Source: Candidatus Kapaibacterium sp.
GTDB lineage: Bacteria; Bacteroidota; Ignavibacteria; Kapaibacteriales; UBA2268
Direction of reading: 5' to 3'
DNA: 64,000 nt
Assembly: GCA_013414795.1 (NCBI GenBank)
Contig: CP058732.1
Coordinates: 1,587,950-1,651,949, forward strand
Shown here: positions 1-33,840 of the stretch, piece after piece
Layout of the letters: every line of letters starts with the position of its first letter
Numbering within the stretch: position 1 is the first letter of the stretch
The notes under the pieces: generated by a model
Told to the model about the DNA's origin: nothing
What the model saw: only the letters and a program-made list of their open reading frames with translations
The model's database searches: none
Program-made: the position numbers and the translations under genes

Positions 1-748
1 TAACAAGAACCTCAACAATGGCTTCTTGAATTGATGCACATAAATCATACAAATCTTGTTCGGGAATATCGTTTGGATAATTTTTTTGCAAAAAGTAACG
101 AACCGAAGTTTTTAACCCACTGAAACTAAAATCTAAATCATCGGAGTTAATTAGTCCACGAGGGAAATCGAAACGATTTGGGTTTCCCATTTTGGAAAGT
201 TTATCAATCTTTGGTCCAGCGGGATAGCCCAAGCCAAGAAGTTTTCCAATTTTGTCGAAGGCTTCGCCAGCAGCATCGTCACGGGTTGCACCAATCATTT
301 CGTATTCTACAAACGAACGAACAAGGAAAAGAGAAGTATGTCCACCACTAACGATCAATGAGATAAATGGAAAAGATAAATCTTCTCCTTCGAGAAAGCC
401 AGAATAAATGTGTCCTTCTATGTGGTCGATTGGAATTAATGGCTTGTTGAACCTCAATGAAATTCCTTTTGCATAATTCGTCCCAACGACAAGGGAACCA
501 ATCAGACCTGGTTGGTATGTGACTGCAATTCCGTCGACTTCTTCAATAGTTACGTTCCCTTGTTTGAGAGCATCATCAACAACTTTTGAAATTATCTGTA
601 TATGAATTCTTGATGCAATTTCTGGAACAACTCCCCCAAAATAATTATGCACAGTTTGGGAAGAAATCACATTACTCAGTGTTTGGTGATTTTTTATAAC
701 AGCAGCCGATGTTTCGTCGCAAGATGTTTCGATTCCTAATATTGTCAT
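1..748 (-). CDS. tsaD: tRNA N6-adenosine threonylcarbamoyltransferase TsaD (C-terminus cut by window edge)
   Basis: This gene makes the enzyme that transfers threonylcarbamoyl to A37 of ANN-decoding tRNAs in the cytoplasm, together with TsaB and TsaE. The reading frame is open to the window edge, so about 249 N-terminal codons of a protein usually near 335 residues are present. The N-terminal ATPase-fold motif GIETSCDETSAAV (residues 5-17) is clear. So are the metal-binding HIEGH (about 109-113) and the SGGHT segment (about 134). The ATG at 748-746 overlaps the TGA stop of cinA as ATGA, so the two are probably translationally coupled. tsaD is the last visible gene of a glmM-cinA-tsaD unit. 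The identification is secure; only the end is missing. Confidence 0.96.
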   Translation of the reverse strand, partial: MTILGIETSCDETSAAVIKNHQTLSNVISSQTVHNYFGGVVPEIASRIHIQIISKVVDDALKQGNVTIEEVDGIAVTYQPGLIGSLVVGTNYAKGISLRFNKPLIPIDHIEGHIYSGFLEGEDLSFPFISLIVSGGHTSLFLVRSFVEYEMIGATRDDAAGEAFDKIGKLLGLGYPAGPKIDKLSKMGNPNRFDFPRGLINSDDLDFSFSGLKTSVRYFLQKNYPNDIPEQDLYDLCASIQEAIVEVLV

Positions 749-2004
749 AGTTCTAAACCTTTTAAGAGGAAAAATAGCATTGTTAACGCAGAAGCAACGC
801 TTCTTTCTCTGTTAATTTCTCGGTCCCCACCGAATTGATGCAATTTTGCAAATGTTTCGTTGGGAGTCGATAAACCTATCCATACTGTTCCTACTGGCTT
901 TTTAGGAGTTCCGCCAGTGGGTCCAGCAATTCCAGTAATGCTAATCCCATAAGTAGAGTTGAATTTCTTTCGCACATTGTAAGCCATTTCAATCGCTGTT
1001 TCTTGACTCACCGCCCCGTACTTCGATAAAGTTTCGGTTGAAACACCTAGGTGTACTGATTTAATTTCATTGCTATATGCAATAATTCCCCCAAGGAAAT
1101 ATTTAGAACTACCAGAAATCTTTGTAAACTCCCCACCAAGCAAACCACCAGTGCACGATTCTGCGACGGCAACTGTTTCACCTCGTTCTTCGAGCATTTT
1201 GCCAACGGTTTCTGCTAATGTAACTTCGCCTTCGCCATAAACATAGTCCCCAACTTTCGAATAAATAAAACTCTTTACTTGCTCAATTTGGTGTTCTGCT
1301 AAGTCTATCGGCAAGCCTTTTGCTTCGATTCTTAATCTAACTCCTTTATACGAGGGCAAGAAAGCCAGATTTAAACCATTAAGGACAGATTCAACACCCG
1401 ACAGTTTATCGGCAAGAACACTTTCGGGAATTCCACAAGTTTGTAGAGTAACAAAAATGTGTGCTTCTTTCTTTTCTGATACAATTTTTGATTTCAGCAA
1501 AGGAAGAATATGTGTTTCCATAATAAATTTCATTTCTTTGGGTACGCCGGGCATCGAAACTAAAATTTTTCCGTTATGTTCAAATAACATTCCAGGTGCA
1601 GTACCAAATTCATTCTTCAAAGGCTTGCATTTCGAAGGCAAGTTTGCCAAATTCCGATTTCTTTCAGAAACTTCGTTTATTCCTCTTTTCTTGTAAAACT
1701 CTTTTATCCATTCCAAGACTTCTTCGTTGAAAATTAAAGTATCTTGAAAATATTTTGCTAATGTGGGTTTGGTTAAATCATCACTTGTTGGACCCAACCC
1801 GCCAGTGATTAAAACTACGTCAGATTTTTTCAGAAGGTCATCTACGCCATCAATTATTTCGTTTTGACTGTCGCCAACAACTCTGTGTTCCACAACTGTT
1901 GCGCCAACTTCAAGACATTTTTGGGCAATCCAGGATGCATTAGTATTAATGATTTGTCCAATAAGTATCTCATCTCCAATAGTTAAAATCGAAACCGATA
2001 GCAT
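745..2004 (-). CDS. cinA: CinA family protein (NMN amidohydrolase / ADP-ribose pyrophosphatase type)
   Basis: The protein has the full two-domain CinA architecture in 419 residues. An N-terminal MoaB/Mog-like domain (about 1-170) carries TGGLGPTSDD near residue 68. A C-terminal PncC-type amidase domain (about 255-415) carries AESCTGGLL near 283, followed by GAVSQETAIEMA and the GIAGPTGGT loop. The PncC half of this family deamidates nicotinamide mononucleotide for NAD salvage, and the N-terminal half has been linked to ADP-ribose hydrolysis. It lies 2 nt after glmM and overlaps tsaD by 4 nt, so it is the middle gene of a co-transcribed trio. The old name, competence-damage inducible protein, says little about function here. 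Confidence 0.94.
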   Translation of the reverse strand: MLSVSILTIGDEILIGQIINTNASWIAQKCLEVGATVVEHRVVGDSQNEIIDGVDDLLKKSDVVLITGGLGPTSDDLTKPTLAKYFQDTLIFNEEVLEWIKEFYKKRGINEVSERNRNLANLPSKCKPLKNEFGTAPGMLFEHNGKILVSMPGVPKEMKFIMETHILPLLKSKIVSEKKEAHIFVTLQTCGIPESVLADKLSGVESVLNGLNLAFLPSYKGVRLRIEAKGLPIDLAEHQIEQVKSFIYSKVGDYVYGEGEVTLAETVGKMLEERGETVAVAESCTGGLLGGEFTKISGSSKYFLGGIIAYSNEIKSVHLGVSTETLSKYGAVSQETAIEMAYNVRKKFNSTYGISITGIAGPTGGTPKKPVGTVWIGLSTPNETFAKLHQFGGDREINRERSVASALTMLFFLLKGLEL

Positions 2005-4623: not shown

Positions 4624-6474
4624 TTTCTTAAGAACTAGATAACCGAACGGTTGAAGAATTAATTGTTCCTCGCTCGTAAGACAAAATTCTCCCAAAAGAA
4701 TCTCCGAGTTCAATAAAACTTTTTTGAGATTTTCAAACGAAAATTTTGCTTCGGTGTTTGAAAAGTTTCCAAAAACATAAAGTTCAACATCATTTGATTC
4801 TCTCGAATAGCAAACAACATATGGATTTGTTGTTTCAATTAATTTGATATGATAATTTTCGAAAGATTCTTTATCAAAGTGAAAATATGAGATGAGTTCA
4901 GAAATTGTTTCAATTAAGGATATGCAATTATCTGAATTCCAGCGAAATTCTATTGGGGAATATAAAGGTAAATTTTCTGGTGGATAAAGTGCAATTTCCT
5001 CTGGTTTAAAGCAAAGACCAGTGTTGTATGGAATTTCGTGAAAAAATTCGAAACCAGAAAGCATAAATCTAACCCCAGGCAAGAAAGCATCGAAAACAGC
5101 AACGAGTTTGTTGAATTCCATACCCAATTTTGCAGAACGAGGAGTGTTATGGGTTTCTGGTGCAAAGAAAAATGGAAGCGAGAAAGAATGATTTTCCAGT
5201 TTTTTGATTACTTCAAATAATTTTTGTGGGTCATTTTGATCAAAGAAAAAGTAACCAAGAGTTGCGTTATAGCCATCTTCTTTCGACTTTTCGGTAACAT
5301 TGAAATTTTCTTCCCAAAAAATAAAATCCTCTTTGTGTTTTCGAGCGGTAGTAATAATTTCTGAAAGTAATTCCTCGGGGATTGCATGACCCATATCAAT
5401 CATTGCTCCATCGATTCCAAAGGTATCGATATAATGCGGAATAATGCCAACTAAAAAATTCCAGAGGTCTTGCACTTTTTCGCCATTTTTAACTAATTCA
5501 TTGTCATACATTCGGATTGTGTTGTAAGCAATGTAATTAAAATTTGGATGGTTGTAATAGCGAAAGTAGGTTACATCAGTCCACAATGGCTGAAGGTCGT
5601 TTGGAGGCCAATCGGCAAAGGCAAAGGGTATGGTAACTTTGTTGCCATTTTCAAGCAAACCGACTATTCTTTCGCCTTCCTTAAAAACTTGTTTTGGAAT
5701 GGGAGTAAAAAGTGAAATATAATTTTTGTTTGGTGGAATTAAATCGGCAAAATCTTTTCTTTCGATTTTATTCAAAATAATATTCAATTCGTTTTCTGAA
5801 AATTTTGGGGGCTGATATCTATTGTTTATAAAATCATCTTCACGAATCCAATAGAACCAATCTGGATGTTCAAGAGCAAGGTCGCTGTCAATACTTGTTG
5901 TCCGAAAAACAAATTCCAATACCACTTTTATGTCCAAAATATGACAGGCTTCGACAAATGCTTTGAATTGAGTTTCTAAATCCAGTTGTAGGAAAGGTTC
6001 TCCAAGTCTGGGGTCAAGTCTATATGGATGAGTATATGCATAAGGTGAACCAAGTATCCCTTTTCTTCCATACTTACCAATTTGAAACACGGGAAGAAGA
6101 TAAATGATATCTACTCCAATCTTTTTAAGATAAGGGAGCAAAGAAATTGATTTGAGAAAAGTACCAGTTTCGTAAACAGAAGAATCTATGGGCTCAATAG
6201 AAATCCTTCCGTCGTTGTTGTGGTCAAAAGTAGTTGTATATCTCAAAAGCGTACAGTAAACAAAAGGAAAGTCCTTGCGAATTGTGTGTTCATCAGTTTT
6301 CCCATTTTTCAAAACATTGTCAATGCTTTTTAGGAAAAAATCCTTTGGTGAGATGTTGAGGAGGTCTGTGGAATACTCCTTGCCCAGCCAAATCCTTGGC
6401 AAATAGTAATTTTTTACATTTAAATTAGATTTTTCGATTTCATTTGCCAATTTTTCTAACGCTTCATATTTCAT
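4609..6474 (-). CDS. GH13 (alpha-amylase superfamily) protein with divergent active site
   Basis: A 621-residue cytoplasmic protein (no signal peptide) with an alpha-amylase type TIM barrel. Region I reads VVLEFVFRTT and is followed by EHPDWFYW, a segment that resembles the HPEWF of GlgE-type maltosyltransferases (GH13_3). A nucleophile-like Asp lies in DGAMIDMGH and an acid-like Glu in FWEENFN. Region IV reads ETHNTPR, where GH13 enzymes normally have an Asp (NHD, or NTPD in GlgE). A C-terminal beta domain follows. It may act on alpha-glucans or their phosphates, or be catalytically weak; substrate is not predictable. It is a lone gene, convergent with comF (15-nt overlap) and divergent from the TPR gene. 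Confidence 0.72.
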   Translation of the reverse strand: MKYEALEKLANEIEKSNLNVKNYYLPRIWLGKEYSTDLLNISPKDFFLKSIDNVLKNGKTDEHTIRKDFPFVYCTLLRYTTTFDHNNDGRISIEPIDSSVYETGTFLKSISLLPYLKKIGVDIIYLLPVFQIGKYGRKGILGSPYAYTHPYRLDPRLGEPFLQLDLETQFKAFVEACHILDIKVVLEFVFRTTSIDSDLALEHPDWFYWIREDDFINNRYQPPKFSENELNIILNKIERKDFADLIPPNKNYISLFTPIPKQVFKEGERIVGLLENGNKVTIPFAFADWPPNDLQPLWTDVTYFRYYNHPNFNYIAYNTIRMYDNELVKNGEKVQDLWNFLVGIIPHYIDTFGIDGAMIDMGHAIPEELLSEIITTARKHKEDFIFWEENFNVTEKSKEDGYNATLGYFFFDQNDPQKLFEVIKKLENHSFSLPFFFAPETHNTPRSAKLGMEFNKLVAVFDAFLPGVRFMLSGFEFFHEIPYNTGLCFKPEEIALYPPENLPLYSPIEFRWNSDNCISLIETISELISYFHFDKESFENYHIKLIETTNPYVVCYSRESNDVELYVFGNFSNTEAKFSFENLKKVLLNSEILLGEFCLTSEEQLILQPFGYLVLKKLCSS

Positions 6475-6539
6475 ATATACATTTCCTTTTAAAAGAGAAA
6501 AAAATAAAATTCGTCTAAAAGTTTTTATTTAAAGGAAAA

Positions 6540-8348
6540 ATGAAAATAGCAAAGTTAACAAAGATAATATTTTTGTTTTTACTCTTACCTTGTGTTTTTT
6601 CTACAATTTTCTCCCAAACCATTTTTGACGAAAAATTCAAATTGGCTTTATCTTTTGAAAAATCTGGGGATTTTGCCAAGGCGGAAGAAATTTATTCCGA
6701 AATTTATCAGCAAAACAAAAGTCGCCTCGATTTTTTCTTCGGATTAGTCCGTTGCAAAAAAGCATTGAATAAATTCAGCGAACTTATACCTATTGTTGAT
6801 GAGCAATTGAAGATTAACAAAAGTTTGGATTTATATTTGATTGCAGGGGAAGTTTATTGGGTGACTGGGAATTCAGAAAAATCTAAAGAATATTGGAATT
6901 TAGCCATAAAAACCTATCCCAAGAACGACTCAACATATATCAAACTTGCGAATTTGCAAAGCAATTTAAGGCTATTTGACCTTGCGATAGGGACTTTACT
7001 TGATGGTAGAAAAAATCTTGGAAATGAATCCTTGTTTAGCGACGACTTGATTAAACTTTTTTTAATTACAAAAAATTACGAAAAGGGTACAGACGAAATT
7101 CTAAAACAATTTGAAAAGAATAACGATTTCAACTGGGTGCAAGCGAAAATAACTTTATTCATTGACAACAAAGATACAAGAACAATTTTAGAAAATAGAC
7201 TAAAGAAAGGAAAATCTGGCTTTAATTTACAGTATAAATACCTACTTGCTTGGTTTTACTATTCAATTAAGGATTGGGAAAAGGCATTGAGTGCATACAA
7301 AGAGTATGATGAACAAACTAAATCCAATGGTTATGAAGTTTACCGTTTCGGCTACACTGCTTTAAAAGACGGTGAATATGATGTAGCAATTAAGGCTTTT
7401 GAATATGTGATTTCATTAGGTAGAAAAAGCGAGTATTTGACAAATTCAATTTATGGAATTGCAAAAGCAAGCGATTTAAAACTTTTGAATGGGGGAAAGG
7501 TACAATCTAATTTAGTACAAAATGTAGTAAAACGCTACGAGGATGTTTTGAAGGATGTTTCCAAGAATTCCGCCCTTTACTTTGAAATCAATTATCGAAT
7601 TGCTTATTTGAAAGCAGTTTATTTAGGCGATTTTCAAAACTCGGAAAAAATTCTTTTGGAAATGATTTCAAACAGATACAATCCGATGAATTTAAAAGCA
7701 AAACTACTTTTGGGAGACGTTTACTTGTATCAGAACCGATTTACCCAAGCAGAGACAAGGTATAGGGAAATATTCAATTCAAGTAAAGTCGGAAAACCAG
7801 AGGAATATTATCTTGCCATTCAAAAGTTAGGTAAAATTAAATATTACCAAGCCCAATTTGATTCTGCTCAATATTATTATTCTTTGTTGATTGAGGAAGC
7901 ACCTGGTGAAATTGCTAATGATGCTCTCGAAAAGAGTTTCTTGATTGAGAAATTCAAACAATATAATTTAGCTTTGTCCTTTCTTGCCACTGCTGAATTA
8001 AAACAGGAGATGAACAATTTAGATTCGGCAATCTTTTATTTAAATCAAGCAATTCAAAAAACAGAAGGTACAGATTTCGAAGAATACTTAACTTTAAAGA
8101 AGATAAAGTTGTATGCTGACGCAGGGTTATTTGAACTTTCTGAGAATGAAGCAAAAGATTTTTTAAATAAGTTCCAAAAATCAATCTATTTTGATGAAGT
8201 ATTGTACTTACTTGGTTTTTCGCAATTTAATCAAAATAAAACTTTGGAATCAATAAGTACTTTTACCGAATTGATAACAAAGTATCCTCGGTCTATATTT
8301 ACCCCAAAAGCCAGGGCAATCATTAACAAACTAAGAAAAGAAAGTTGA
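6540..8348 (+). CDS. Exported tetratricopeptide-repeat protein
   Basis: A 602-residue protein with a Sec signal peptide (residues 1-26, ending near FSQT, no lipobox). The rest is mostly TPR-like helical pairs. An early repeat reads KSGDFAKAEEIYSEIYQQN, and a late one resembles the YbgF/BamD type (FNQNKTLESISTFTELI). It probably sits in the periplasm or at the outer membrane as a protein-protein scaffold. It is monocistronic: it faces the GH13-like gene across 65 nt and ends 5 nt before the convergent murA. No catalytic motif is visible and the partner is unknown. Confidence 0.8.
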   Translation: MKIAKLTKIIFLFLLLPCVFSTIFSQTIFDEKFKLALSFEKSGDFAKAEEIYSEIYQQNKSRLDFFFGLVRCKKALNKFSELIPIVDEQLKINKSLDLYLIAGEVYWVTGNSEKSKEYWNLAIKTYPKNDSTYIKLANLQSNLRLFDLAIGTLLDGRKNLGNESLFSDDLIKLFLITKNYEKGTDEILKQFEKNNDFNWVQAKITLFIDNKDTRTILENRLKKGKSGFNLQYKYLLAWFYYSIKDWEKALSAYKEYDEQTKSNGYEVYRFGYTALKDGEYDVAIKAFEYVISLGRKSEYLTNSIYGIAKASDLKLLNGGKVQSNLVQNVVKRYEDVLKDVSKNSALYFEINYRIAYLKAVYLGDFQNSEKILLEMISNRYNPMNLKAKLLLGDVYLYQNRFTQAETRYREIFNSSKVGKPEEYYLAIQKLGKIKYYQAQFDSAQYYYSLLIEEAPGEIANDALEKSFLIEKFKQYNLALSFLATAELKQEMNNLDSAIFYLNQAIQKTEGTDFEEYLTLKKIKLYADAGLFELSENEAKDFLNKFQKSIYFDEVLYLLGFSQFNQNKTLESISTFTELITKYPRSIFTPKARAIINKLRKES

Positions 8349-29847: not shown

Positions 29848-29912
29848 ATTTAGGAAAAAACATTCTTATTCAAAAAGGTTAATTTTGAATGAGTTTTAAG
29901 GTTGGGTTTGAT

Positions 29913-30968
29913 ATGAAACGTAAAAGAGGTAATATTAAGAGAATATGGTTAATTTTTGCTTCAATGATATTTCTAATTACAAGTTGCACAGAAAATAACA
30001 ACACACCACAAACAGAACAACCAAAAGACTATTCGAAAGCGCCCAAAGGCTTCCCTCCAATTCCTTTCCCAGCGGATAATCCTTATTCCAAAGCCAAATT
30101 TGAACTTGGCAGAAGACTTTTTTATGATAGTATCCTTGTGAAAGACTATTCTTTTAAATCCTGCTCGCATTGTTTAAAGCAGGCTCATAATTTTCAAGAT
30201 AATGTACCAAACAGTCTGGGATATAACAAAATTCCCGAACCTCGAAATACAATGTCATTGACAAACGTTGCTTATTTTGATAAAATTTTTTGGGACGGAC
30301 GTGGCAAAAGAATAGAACAGCCTGCTTATCGAAGTTTGTTTTTACCATATATTTTTGCAACAGATACGAACGAACTGCAAAAGAGGTTAGAGAATCATCC
30401 AATTTACCCAAAGTTGTTCAAAGAAGCCTTTGGTGACAGTGCAAAACCTACTGCTTGGAATGTTGCTCTTGCTATTTCAACATTTGTTCGTTGCCTGGTT
30501 AGTGGAAATTCTCCTTACGATAAGTATGTTCGAGGGGACACTAATGCTCTCACAGAATCACAAAAGCGTGGTATGAAACTATTTTTCAGCGAAAGAACCA
30601 AATGCTCCGTTTGCCACAGCGGTTTCCTTTTTACGGATTTACAATTTCACAATACTGGTACAACAAATCATTATTTTGATTTTGGACGCTACTATGTTAC
30701 TGGAAAATATGAAGATAGGAATAAGTTCCTCACACCATCTTTAAGGAATGTTGAAGTATCTGCTCCGTATCTTCACGATGGAACATACAAAACTCTTGAA
30801 GAGGTCATAGAAAATTATAACCGTGGTGGTTTTCCAACAATAAACAAAGACACTCTAATCAAACCATTAAATTTGACTGACCAAGAAAAACAAGATTTGA
30901 TTAACTTTCTTAAAGCATTAACGGACTGGGAATTTCTGACAAATCCAGATTTCGCAGAGCCAAAATAA
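29913..30968 (+). CDS. Di-haem cytochrome c peroxidase-like lipoprotein, haem-1 His missing
   Basis: A MauG/CcpA-family lipoprotein. The ATG at 29913 gives MKRKRGNIKRIW and a lipobox ending at Cys25 (LITSC); an ATG 24 nt upstream is also possible. The C-terminal haem site is intact (Cys231, Cys234, His235 in KCSVCHSG). The N-terminal site reads CSHCL (Cys84, Cys87, Leu88) where the next gene has CASCH, so the axial His is lost. PYLHDGTY and the TPSLRN segment of the family are present. It may bind one haem only, or serve as an electron carrier rather than a peroxidase. It starts the redox island, 68 nt upstream of its intact paralogue. Confidence 0.88.
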   Translation: MKRKRGNIKRIWLIFASMIFLITSCTENNNTPQTEQPKDYSKAPKGFPPIPFPADNPYSKAKFELGRRLFYDSILVKDYSFKSCSHCLKQAHNFQDNVPNSLGYNKIPEPRNTMSLTNVAYFDKIFWDGRGKRIEQPAYRSLFLPYIFATDTNELQKRLENHPIYPKLFKEAFGDSAKPTAWNVALAISTFVRCLVSGNSPYDKYVRGDTNALTESQKRGMKLFFSERTKCSVCHSGFLFTDLQFHNTGTTNHYFDFGRYYVTGKYEDRNKFLTPSLRNVEVSAPYLHDGTYKTLEEVIENYNRGGFPTINKDTLIKPLNLTDQEKQDLINFLKALTDWEFLTNPDFAEPK

Positions 30969-31035: not shown

Positions 31036-32091
31036 ATGAAAATGTCAAAATTTTATAAAATAATTATTCTTGCAATTTTTTCGGTATTACTATTACTTTT
31101 TAACAATTTTTGTTCGCAGAATTCAGTTACGACTAATTCCAGCGAAGTCGATTATTCAATTTCGCCAAAAGGTTTTCCCAAAATTCCATTTCCAAAGGAT
31201 AACGCTTATTCTTCAGCAAAGGAAAAATTAGGACGGTATCTATTTTTTGATAAAATTCTTTCAAAAGATTCGACTTTTTCTTGTGCAAGTTGTCACAATC
31301 CACGTTATGCTTTTGCAAATAATGTACCTAATCCTTTAACAATCAATCGTTTTCCTTTACCACGCAATGTTTTATCATTGGTAAATGTCGCATATAGGAA
31401 TCTTATAGGCTGGGAGGGGAACGAAATATCTTTGGAAGATGCAATATATCACGATTTCTACAGTCCACTTTTCTTCGATAACGATACCAATGAAATTTTC
31501 AAAAGATTGAGTAATCATCCCTTCTATCCTAAAATGTTCGAGGAGGCATTTGGAAAGAAAAGCAAACCATATCCATATCTTGCTGCAAAAGCAATAGCCA
31601 CTTTTGTACGTACACTTGTATCGGGAAATTCTGCTTACGACCGATATGTAAGGGGAGATTCAAATGCACTAACTGAATCACAGAAGAGAGGAATGAAATT
31701 GTTTTTTAGCGATAGAACCAAATGTTCAGTTTGCCATAGTGGTTTCCTATTTACCGACTTACAATTTCATAATACTGGAACAACAAATCATTATTTCGAT
31801 TTTGGTCGCTTCTATTCGACTGGCAAGTTTGAAGATAGGAATAAATTTCTTACACCCTCATTGAGAAATATCGAAATCACTGCTCCTTATCTTCACGATG
31901 GCACTTATCAAACCTTGGAAGAAGTAATTGAAAATTATAATAATGGTGGGTACCCAACAATAAATAAAGATACGATTTTGAAACCACTCAATCTAACGGA
32001 GCAAGAAAAAGAGGACTTGATAAATTTCCTTAAAGCCCTTACAGATTGGGACTTTTTAAACCAAGAACGATTTAAGTCTTTTGGCTACTAA
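31036..32091 (+). CDS. Di-haem cytochrome c peroxidase-like lipoprotein
   Basis: A 351-residue MauG/CcpA-family protein. The lipobox ends at Cys26 (FNNFC). Both haem sites are intact: CASCH (Cys83, Cys86, His87) and CSVCH (Cys230, Cys233, His234). In the family the C-terminal haem donates electrons and the N-terminal haem reduces peroxide, though some members instead oxidise or activate substrates. It follows its paralogue directly; the C-terminal 150 residues of the two are almost the same while the N-terminal parts differ strongly. The anchored form suggests periplasmic membrane location. The two Rieske proteins that follow could be electron partners. Confidence 0.92.
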   Translation: MKMSKFYKIIILAIFSVLLLLFNNFCSQNSVTTNSSEVDYSISPKGFPKIPFPKDNAYSSAKEKLGRYLFFDKILSKDSTFSCASCHNPRYAFANNVPNPLTINRFPLPRNVLSLVNVAYRNLIGWEGNEISLEDAIYHDFYSPLFFDNDTNEIFKRLSNHPFYPKMFEEAFGKKSKPYPYLAAKAIATFVRTLVSGNSAYDRYVRGDSNALTESQKRGMKLFFSDRTKCSVCHSGFLFTDLQFHNTGTTNHYFDFGRFYSTGKFEDRNKFLTPSLRNIEITAPYLHDGTYQTLEEVIENYNNGGYPTINKDTILKPLNLTEQEKEDLINFLKALTDWDFLNQERFKSFGY

Positions 32092-32141: not shown

Positions 32142-32912
32142 TTGGTTGACAAAAATAGAAGAAAATTTCTGGAACTTGTCTTTGTTGGAACAGCAACGAC
32201 AATTCTCCCACCTCATAAATTGTTGGGATTTCTTCGACCTCAACTCAAAGAAACAGGTGACGAAATCCTTGGTATTTATGGAATAAGTCTGAATGATTAT
32301 CCAGAGTTAATACCTATTTGGGGTTCAATAAGAATTAAGATTGAAAATACTTTAATGTTTTATCCAAAAGTTATAATCGTGCACGTACCAAAAGAAGATT
32401 ACGGAGTCGACTTTATTGCAGTATCTGAAAGATGTCCGCACGAAGGTTATCCAGTGAAGGACCTGGACCCAGATTTACATCTGTTCGAATGCTCTGGTCA
32501 TGGAACACTTTTCGATGTCACTGGAAAATACGTTTGGGGTCCAGCCTCACGTGACCTGGAAAGAATTCATTTGGAATATGATGGTGATAAAACAATTTAC
32601 TTGGAAGTGGCTTTGTACCCCCTTGGCAAATTTGACGAGAAAGAACAATTTACCTTTCTGCATCAGAATTTCCCTAATCCTTGTTCCACGAGTACTATTG
32701 TAAGGTTTGGAACTGAAAGACCATCATATGTTGAAATAATCTTGATTGATTCAAGAGGAAAAATTATTAATAAACTGTTTAGCGGATTGGTCAAACCATC
32801 AGGCGAAGAAATTTTGATTGATGTTTCTGAATTAAACTCTGGTGTTTATTTTATAAAAATGAGTGTTGAGGGGAAATTCGTTTCAATTAAGAAAATGATT
32901 GTAGAGCATTGA
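32142..32912 (+). CDS. Tat-type Rieske [2Fe-2S] protein with T9SS C-terminal sorting domain
   Basis: Read from a TTG at 32142, this 256-residue protein begins with a twin-arginine leader (NRRKFLEL) and a hydrophobic stretch. The Rieske domain (about 40-160) has box I CPHEGY (Cys98, His100) and box II CSGHGTLFD (Cys117, His120). The two extra cysteines that form the disulfide in respiratory Rieske proteins are absent. From about 172 a type IX secretion domain follows (FLHQNFPNPCSTS, ending KKMIVEH). So the protein is predicted to carry a cluster out through Tat, cross the outer membrane by T9SS and stay on the surface. It is 50 nt after the peroxidase and 1 nt before the second Rieske gene. 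Confidence 0.87.
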   Translation: MVDKNRRKFLELVFVGTATTILPPHKLLGFLRPQLKETGDEILGIYGISLNDYPELIPIWGSIRIKIENTLMFYPKVIIVHVPKEDYGVDFIAVSERCPHEGYPVKDLDPDLHLFECSGHGTLFDVTGKYVWGPASRDLERIHLEYDGDKTIYLEVALYPLGKFDEKEQFTFLHQNFPNPCSTSTIVRFGTERPSYVEIILIDSRGKIINKLFSGLVKPSGEEILIDVSELNSGVYFIKMSVEGKFVSIKKMIVEH

Positions 32913-32913
32913 T

Positions 32914-33453
32914 ATGTTTATAAATTCTTCAAGAAGAGAATTTCTTCAAAAAGTTACAGATTTAGCAAAAGGTGTTGGGATTTCTCTCATCTTTCTTCCT
33001 ATAATTAGTTGTGAGAAAGATTGGATTATTCCTCCACAATTAAAAGGGGAGTTTATAGAAATTGACTTGACAAACGAAAAAAGCGATGTTCTGAACTTTC
33101 CAGTTTTAAATTTTCTTGGTTCGGGCGTTACAAAGCAATTTGAACAAATAAATTACGGAATACCTGTAATTATTGTAAGAGTGAAAAAAGAAAACAAAAT
33201 TGATGACTTTAAATGCTTTTCGGGAATGTGTACTCACGACCATTGTTTCGGTAAAGAAAAAGTTCGGGCCCCTATAAAGTTGGAAACTGTTGAGGCTAAC
33301 AAGAAAATATGTCGGGTGGTATGCACTTGCCATGGCTCTGAATTCGACTTACTGAATGGTGGTTTACCATTAAAAGGACCAGCAGAAAAGCCTTTAAGGG
33401 AATTTAAGTGTGAATTTTTCCCGGAAACTAACATTTTAAGAATTTATTATTAA
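32914..33453 (+). CDS. Tat-type Rieske [2Fe-2S] lipoprotein
   Basis: A 179-residue Rieske protein with a twin-arginine motif (SSRREFLQK) and a lipobox-like end at Cys33 (PIISC). Box I CTHDHC (Cys106, His108, Cys111) and box II CTCHGS (Cys137, Cys139, His140) are the full respiratory-type set including both disulfide Cys. This contrasts with the preceding Rieske protein. A 17-residue insert (AVRAPIKLETVEA type, about 113-135) lies between the boxes. It starts 1 nt after the previous stop, so it is tightly coupled. It is likely anchored in a membrane as an electron carrier; no cytochrome b or quinol oxidase gene adjoins it. Confidence 0.88.
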   Translation: MFINSSRREFLQKVTDLAKGVGISLIFLPIISCEKDWIIPPQLKGEFIEIDLTNEKSDVLNFPVLNFLGSGVTKQFEQINYGIPVIIVRVKKENKIDDFKCFSGMCTHDHCFGKEKVRAPIKLETVEANKKICRVVCTCHGSEFDLLNGGLPLKGPAEKPLREFKCEFFPETNILRIYY

Positions 33454-33462
33454 TTTTTAGTA

Positions 33463-33840
33463 ATGAAGTTAATTCAGTTTACAATTTTGGCTTTGTTAAT
33501 TATTTCCTGTAGTAGTTCAACCAACAACAATCCAACCGATTTTCCAGATAGTAATTTGAGTTTCAATAATCATATTCTACCGCTCTTGAGAAATACCTGC
33601 GGTTTATCATATTGCCACGGTGAAGTCTCGCCAAGCGGTAATGTCCAAATTTACGACTACTTTTCATTGATGAACTCTTACAACGGAGCATTAGTAATTC
33701 CTGGAAATCCAGATGGGAGCGTCCTTGTTCAAATTATTGAATATAAACTACCGCATAGACCTAATTTACAATGGCAATTAAACAGCAAACAGATACAAGC
33801 AATTCGAAAATGGATCGCAGAAGGTGCAAAAAACAATTAA
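33463..33840 (+). CDS. Small cytochrome-like lipoprotein with CX4CH motif
   Basis: A 125-residue lipoprotein with Cys16 as the lipid anchor (LIISC). A single haem-type motif, CGLSYCHG (Cys46, Cys51, His52), has four residues between the cysteines instead of two. Similar CX4CH proteins with ILPLLRNTC-like lead-ins occur in Bacteroidota and Planctomycetes and are often called planctomycete-type cytochromes. The rest ends with the LNSKQIQAIRKWIAEGAK helix typical of that family. It sits 9 nt after the Rieske lipoprotein. Haem binding by this spacing is not proven. Confidence 0.82.
   Translation: MKLIQFTILALLIISCSSSTNNNPTDFPDSNLSFNNHILPLLRNTCGLSYCHGEVSPSGNVQIYDYFSLMNSYNGALVIPGNPDGSVLVQIIEYKLPHRPNLQWQLNSKQIQAIRKWIAEGAKNN

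Follow-up and report, generated by a model that had tools for sequence, protein, structure and literature searches.

The window analysed here, a 64,000-nucleotide stretch of a Candidatus Kapaibacterium sp. genome, encodes a Rieske protein that, as read from its sequence, carries an export signal at each end, a Tat-type leader at the N terminus and a type IX secretion system (T9SS) sorting domain at the C terminus, and both signals are conserved among its relatives. These features make it quite probable that the protein is exported folded and loaded with its cluster, first by Tat and then by T9SS, and that it forms, together with IorB-like and ArrAB-like enzymes, a small group of such cargo. 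On this route, the [2Fe-2S] cluster would be loaded into the protein in the cytoplasm, the folded protein would cross the inner membrane via Tat, the type IX machinery would recognise the C-terminal domain and carry the protein over the outer membrane, and PorU would cut off the tail and anchor the protein at the surface, by analogy with other type A cargo. We infer the dependence on Tat, the passage of the loaded protein and its surface location from these signals. The preliminary description of this DNA had put forward the combination of Tat and T9SS, and at the level of sequence that hypothesis is supported by an invariant RR pair, by the profiles that recognise the tail and by a survey of leaders.

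A Rieske domain between two export signals

The gene had been placed correctly at 32142-32912, which we read as a single open frame on the plus strand, with TTG as the sole standard start codon from the upstream stop up to the RR pair. Its product consists of three parts, an NRRKFL leader, a Rieske domain and a C-terminal domain that starts near FLHQNFPNP:

32142..32912, plus strand: Rieske protein of 256 aa (TTG start) with a Tat-type leader and a predicted T9SS type A C-terminal domain
32142..32228, plus strand: leader, residues 1-29, with RR at residues 6-7 (32157-32162)
32262..32618, plus strand: Rieske [2Fe-2S] domain (PF00355), residues 41-159, with ligands C98, H100, C117 and H120
32643..32909, plus strand: C-terminal T9SS type A sorting domain, residues 168-256 (scores above cut-off with both PF18962 and TIGR04183)

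The leader reads VDKNRRKFLELVFVGTATTILPPHKLLG; its end at residue 29 is a guess with no cleavage-site prediction behind it. The hydropathy of the leader peaks at 1.75 over 12 residues and at 1.17 over 19 residues. The Rieske cluster site is complete, as had been described from the letters, with C98-P-H100 followed by C117-S-G-H120 and by a G-P-A loop at 133-135, and PF00355 matches the domain at 28.5 bits (Pfam cut-off 20.3).

For the C-terminal segment, the preliminary description had claimed a T9SS sorting domain and proposed a check against T9SS profiles. That check, run here, upholds the claim: the tail scores 41.0 bits with PF18962 (Pfam cut-off 27) and 35.3 bits with TIGR04183 (NCBIfam cut-off 23; 36.7 bits in the genome search), and the model of the tail resembles the C-terminal domain of PorU. 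The predicted structure was built on 30 sequences and has a mean pLDDT of 83, the leader and the linker 160-167 being poorly resolved. Its residues 38-159 match the Rieske domain 8hn2_A (Z 13.7) and AioB 1g8k_B (Z 12.4), and its residues 168-256 match PorU 1055-1157 (6za2_A; Z 11.2, rmsd 2.0, 26% identity over 87 residues). Since unrelated beta-sandwich domains score Z 10.6-11.0 against the tail model, this fold supports the profile result and is no stand-alone proof. The list of structural matches was mostly occupied by the Rieske domain, so that the absence of a family from it carries no meaning. By its tail, we thus provisionally file the protein as a variant of T9SS type A cargo, from which it would differ in having a Tat-type rather than a Sec-type leader and an Fe-S passenger.

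AioB, the small subunit of arsenite oxidase, is a Tat-type Rieske protein, and it provides the best relatives of the Rieske part among PDB sequences. The aligned stretch of NT-26 AioB has no cysteine pair around the cluster, and the same holds for the window protein. In contrast to AioB, the window protein has a T9SS tail, and no AioA was recognised beside its gene. Membership of the AioB family itself was rejected (TIGR02694, 34.7 bits against a cut-off of 95.65).

Conservation of both signals and alternatives to the Tat-T9SS route

We searched the Rieske part in the genomes of 149 relatives, own genome included, and found 52 matches (E <= 1e-6) in 43 of them. The homologue set used below consists of the best-scoring 30 of these 52, window protein included; it spans seven families, and the remaining 22 matches lie outside it. 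We chose the starts of the homologous ORFs ourselves, taking the last ATG before the RR where one was present and setting three by hand, a choice without effect on the aligned RR. Identity to the window protein within the set ranges from 21 to 68%, and R6, R7, C98, H100, C117, H120, G133, A135, G234 and Y236 are invariant in 30/30. Every one of these best 30 has the RR pair before a short weak core as well as the four cluster ligands, and F9 and L10 are kept in at least 90% of the aligned sequences. PF00355 calls the Rieske domain in 28 of the 30, and the tail is recognised by TIGR04183 in 27 and by PF18962 in 28.

We examined the leader against those of other putative T9SS cargo in the same genome, a survey that the preliminary description had suggested. 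TIGR04183 matches the genome at 105 places; the starts of all 105 frames were fetched, and a simple rule, which asks for a hydrophobic stretch near the N terminus and a start ahead of it, identified a leader in 95. Among the ten frames that yielded no usable leader, two stretches were too short, and the others lack a start or a hydrophobic stretch within 401 bases. An RR pair stands in the n-region of 7 of the 95 leaders, and only two of these combine it with a weak core: that of the Rieske protein stands at 1.75 and that of a molybdenum hydroxylase at 1.90. Strong cores (2.32-3.32) accompany the RR in the remaining five, unlike in the Rieske protein, and an RR arisen by chance was set aside on this ground. 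For the 88 leaders that have no RR the median core is 2.76, with two at or below 1.95; core strength alone is thus indecisive, because these two equal the weakness of the two Tat-type ones.

The same survey bears on a rival explanation, in which the window protein has a Sec leader with an incidental RR, and the apoprotein crosses unfolded and gains its cluster elsewhere or never. The RR pairs beside strong cores are in its favour, as is the fact that Tat leader models miss most of the best 30 homologues (TIGR01409 finds 4 and PF10518 finds 2, and neither model matches the window protein). We nevertheless consider a Sec leader improbable: the RR is invariant at identities down to 21%, the core is weak relative to the median of the other leaders, and Rieske clusters are inserted in the cytoplasm. 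A leader that scored as purely Sec was the outcome that the preliminary description had named as counting against it; what was found is a leader unlike those of most tail proteins of this genome, and the twin-arginine claim holds, with a weak h-region. We call the leader Tat-type on the combined basis of its invariant RR and weak h-region, the cofactor of the protein and the presence of tat genes.

Parts of the machinery that such a route would need are widespread among these relatives. TatC was found in 144 of the 149 genomes and SprA in 148 (147 over the cut-off), own genome included in both cases, with an SprA score of 740 bits. Our genome also holds two TatA/B/E-type genes and a PorU at 773 bits. 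TIGR03517, used for GldM, matched neither this genome nor any control, and PF12081 gave one sub-threshold GldM match in it, at 22.5 bits (cut-off 25).

A further rival takes the leader for a signal anchor that stays uncleaved, like that of bc1-type Rieske proteins, and would make this an inner-membrane protein whose tail serves another contact or nothing. Bacterial bc1 and b6f Rieske proteins (QcrA, PetC) do carry an RR leader, and classical Rieske subunits retain it as a Tat signal anchor; moreover, the window leader shows no clear cleavage site and no obvious AxA. Membrane anchors usually reach 1.6 over 19 residues, a value that none of the 30 leaders attains (best 1.52), and an uncleaved anchor is therefore unlikely. 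Two observations point the same way, namely the conservation of tail residues across these best 30 of 52 sequences, and the finding that no cytochrome b gene was recognised among the ORFs listed for 25-41 kb of the window. The window protein shares with the bc1 and b6f proteins the Rieske fold, the cluster ligands and the G-P-A loop, and differs from them in its weak short leader, the lack of a membrane anchor and the T9SS tail. Membership of their families was rejected, both on profile scores (TIGR01416 21.4 against 97.4; NF045928 29.1 against 250) and for want of an anchor-strength leader in the 30 sequences. We rate the signal anchor as low as the Sec leader.

The remaining rival accepts export by Tat and regards the tail as a relic on an ordinary periplasmic electron carrier. 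Its support comes from the same-genus copy L013, whose tail lacks the PNP motif, and from the wider phylum, of which we sampled 395 genomes and found a Rieske match in 227. Thirty loci were fetched from this sample, eight of which are genes already in the homologue set. Three further loci combine RR and a tail, one from a further family of the same order (L243, PF18962 40.8 bits, cut-off 27) and two with sub-threshold tails, L230 from the same class and L231 from another class (21.4 and 21.5 bits). No tail was found in the other 19 of the 30 fetched; the 15 of these 19 that were listed are 145-210 codons long, and 12 of them have RR and the other 3 RK. Against a relic, all 30 aligned sequences retain the tail (27-28 by profile), as does L243, the model of the tail folds as expected, and in the ArrAB-like complexes described below the tail that is missing from one subunit stands on the other. 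We regard this as the least probable of the three rivals, and return to Tat followed by T9SS as the preferred reading.

A tree built from only the Rieske domain places 32 rows with a tail on one side of a single branch, so that tail distribution requires 1 change, against 17.9 when shuffled; the support of this branch is weak (75/86, 77% of bootstraps). Rows were Rieske domains cropped by motif, L243 and the 185-codon frame of L231 being left out. The fusion of tail and Rieske domain likely has an old single origin. In one locus, L165, tandem Rieske ORFs (4992-5771 and 5947-6747, minus strand) both have RR leaders; the end of the first ORF looks tail-like by eye and gave no PF18962 match at E 0.01.

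Neighbouring genes and a possible redox role

The gene lies among further putative redox proteins:

29889..30968, plus strand: MauG/MbnH-like probable lipoprotein with one CxxCH, its first motif being CSHCLK (PF03150 131.7 bits)
31036..32091, plus strand: MauG/MbnH-like probable lipoprotein with two CxxCH (PF03150 140.6 bits; TIGR04039 265.3, cut-off 362.85)
32914..33453, plus strand: second Rieske protein (PF00355 30.8 bits), with an SRREFL leader ending in a lipobox-like IISC and no T9SS tail
33463..33840, plus strand: probable small lipoprotein containing CGLSYCHG, a C-x4-C-H motif (PF07635 18.5, cut-off 22; NF047812 19.9, cut-off 100)

The lipobox in the second Rieske leader is our own reading. 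Neither MauG/MbnH-like neighbour could be admitted to the MbnH or MauG family (TIGR04039 263.8 and 265.3 against 362.85; TIGR03791 180.7 and 189.5 against 443.85). The first haem site of 16 aligned MauG/MbnH-like rows is CxxCH in 8 and CSHC[LM]K in 8. The C-x4-C-H motif of the small protein is present in 5/5 same-genus copies and may represent an unusual haem site.

Within its own family, 11 other loci were compared: MauG/MbnH-like genes precede the Rieske gene in 8 of the 11 (two show none and one stretch starts too close), and in 10 of the 11 it is followed by a second Rieske gene whose leader has RR and ends like a lipobox. MauG/MbnH-like genes were found in 0 of 11 loci of other families; in seven of these 11, from four families, the Rieske gene stands directly after a NuoE-like gene (PF01257 in 7/7; L162, L163, L164, L165, L166, L167 and L169). 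In L231 (genome G232, from another class), the RR Rieske frame with the sub-threshold tail adjoins a second RR Rieske frame with a lipobox-like end, a pairing like that in the window.

We tentatively propose that the protein might be the outer, surface-exposed member of an electron relay in the envelope, as a carrier working with the Rieske lipoprotein and the MauG/MbnH-like haem lipoproteins, although other roles are together likelier. Because the neighbourhood changes between families, this redox role is the least certain part of our reading. The neighbourhood does not settle the function of the protein.

Molybdenum enzymes with the same signals

The combination of a Tat-type leader and a T9SS tail appears to be no one-off, as it recurs by sequence in two molybdenum enzyme families of this lineage. 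The following features are from our genome:

L151 5998-8406, minus strand: IorB/XdhA-like molybdenum subunit with a Tat-type leader and a T9SS tail
L151 8357-8800, minus strand: IorA-like [2Fe-2S] protein of 148 residues, leaderless, overlapping the IorB-like gene (PF01799, PF00111)
L150 4462-8714: ArrAB-like Mo/Fe-S complex

In the IorB-like protein taken whole, the tail scores close to the cut-offs (TIGR04183 24.5, cut-off 23; PF18962 26.4, cut-off 27). The leaderless [2Fe-2S] protein that overlaps its gene matches what is expected for IorA. A search for IorB-like proteins gave 32 matches in 26 genomes; of the 16 matches whose loci were read, all have RR, and in 14 both PF18962 and TIGR04183 recognise the tail.

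In the second family, the two signals are carried in our genome by different subunits. One of its 105 tail matches, L150 7024-8115 (34.9 bits), has no leader and is an ArrB-related 4Fe-4S subunit (240 bits against a cut-off of 450). The gene before it encodes an ArrA-like subunit (1070 bits, cut-off 1600; 940 bits to PDB 6cz7) with a Tat-type leader and no tail, and the gene after it is TorD/NarJ-like. Molybdenum enzymes of the DMSO reductase, ArrAB and IorAB type are exported through Tat by hitchhiking. The ArrAB-like complex resembles them in the RR on A, the leaderless Fe-S subunit B and the adjoining TorD/NarJ-like gene, and differs from them in also having one T9SS tail, on A or B.

We compared this locus with six others (L200, L201, L202, L203, L204 and L205), the comparison being confined to the seven closest B subunits, which are 60-69% identical to ours. 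Each of the seven loci (7/7) has exactly one T9SS tail per complex, placed on B and not on A in our genome, G002 and G049, and on A and not on B in G036, G011, G018 and G009. Subunit A has an RR leader in 6/6 loci with a readable start (that of G011 is cut by the contig end), and subunit B has a leader in 0/7. Identity between A subunits is 80-82% within the B-tail group, 62-73% within the A-tail group and 57-61% between the two; since the tail groups coincide with the sequence groups, we count one switch of tail position rather than seven independent events. Comparing the tails of three A subunits with those of three B subunits gives identities of only 26-32%, and for this reason we make no claim that a tail was transferred between A and B. 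In L200, a T9SS-tail-like protein (297-1115, minus strand) that combines a Sec-type leader with the CxxCH motif CGECH may be a surface c-type haem protein; such a CGECH protein with a tail-like end and a Sec-type leader is also found in our genome near C1:1038602.

The simplest reading of these loci is that one tail per complex suffices and that A and B leave together, in which case T9SS would pass an assembled, cofactor-loaded pair. Since A bears the Tat signal and either A or B the T9SS signal, the assembled complex should cross both membranes. We somewhat favour the broader proposal that T9SS in this lineage is an exporter of assembled, cofactor-loaded complexes delivered by Tat, one clade having the signals split between A and B and the other having both on A, so that in the split clade only the AB pair would cross both membranes.

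The published rule is different. A 2022 review gives the Sec signal of T9SS substrates as a rule in the part covered (PMC9127263), in agreement with the remark of the preliminary description that T9SS cargo uses Sec, and the covered part of PMC9251779 likewise presents T9SS cargo as Sec-delivered, with SprA passing folded proteins. One general statement, in PMC10925705, holds that effectors exported by Sec or Tat may continue via T2SS, T5SS or T9SS, and the portion of that text covered gives no Tat example for T9SS; PMC4804311 and PMC5445135, as far as covered, name Sec and Tat only in general terms. Among the matches listed in our search, which extended to neither subscription journals nor bioRxiv, no paper reported Tat-delivered T9SS cargo in its title or the start of its abstract. 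What appears to be new here is a candidate T9SS type A cargo with a Tat-type leader, the cargo described in the covered parts of PMC9127263 and PMC9251779 being Sec-delivered.

Sec-delivered cargo can hardly bring a cytoplasmic cofactor with it, because it crosses the inner membrane unfolded. If the proposed route is true, delivery by Tat followed by T9SS lets these bacteria display molybdenum and Fe-S enzymes on the cell surface, and the tail of the ArrAB-like complexes would extend the Tat piggyback to the outer membrane. With such cargo one could test directly what size and what degree of folding T9SS accepts in a passenger, and the ArrAB-like pair, the same complex with its tail on either subunit, would offer a natural experiment.
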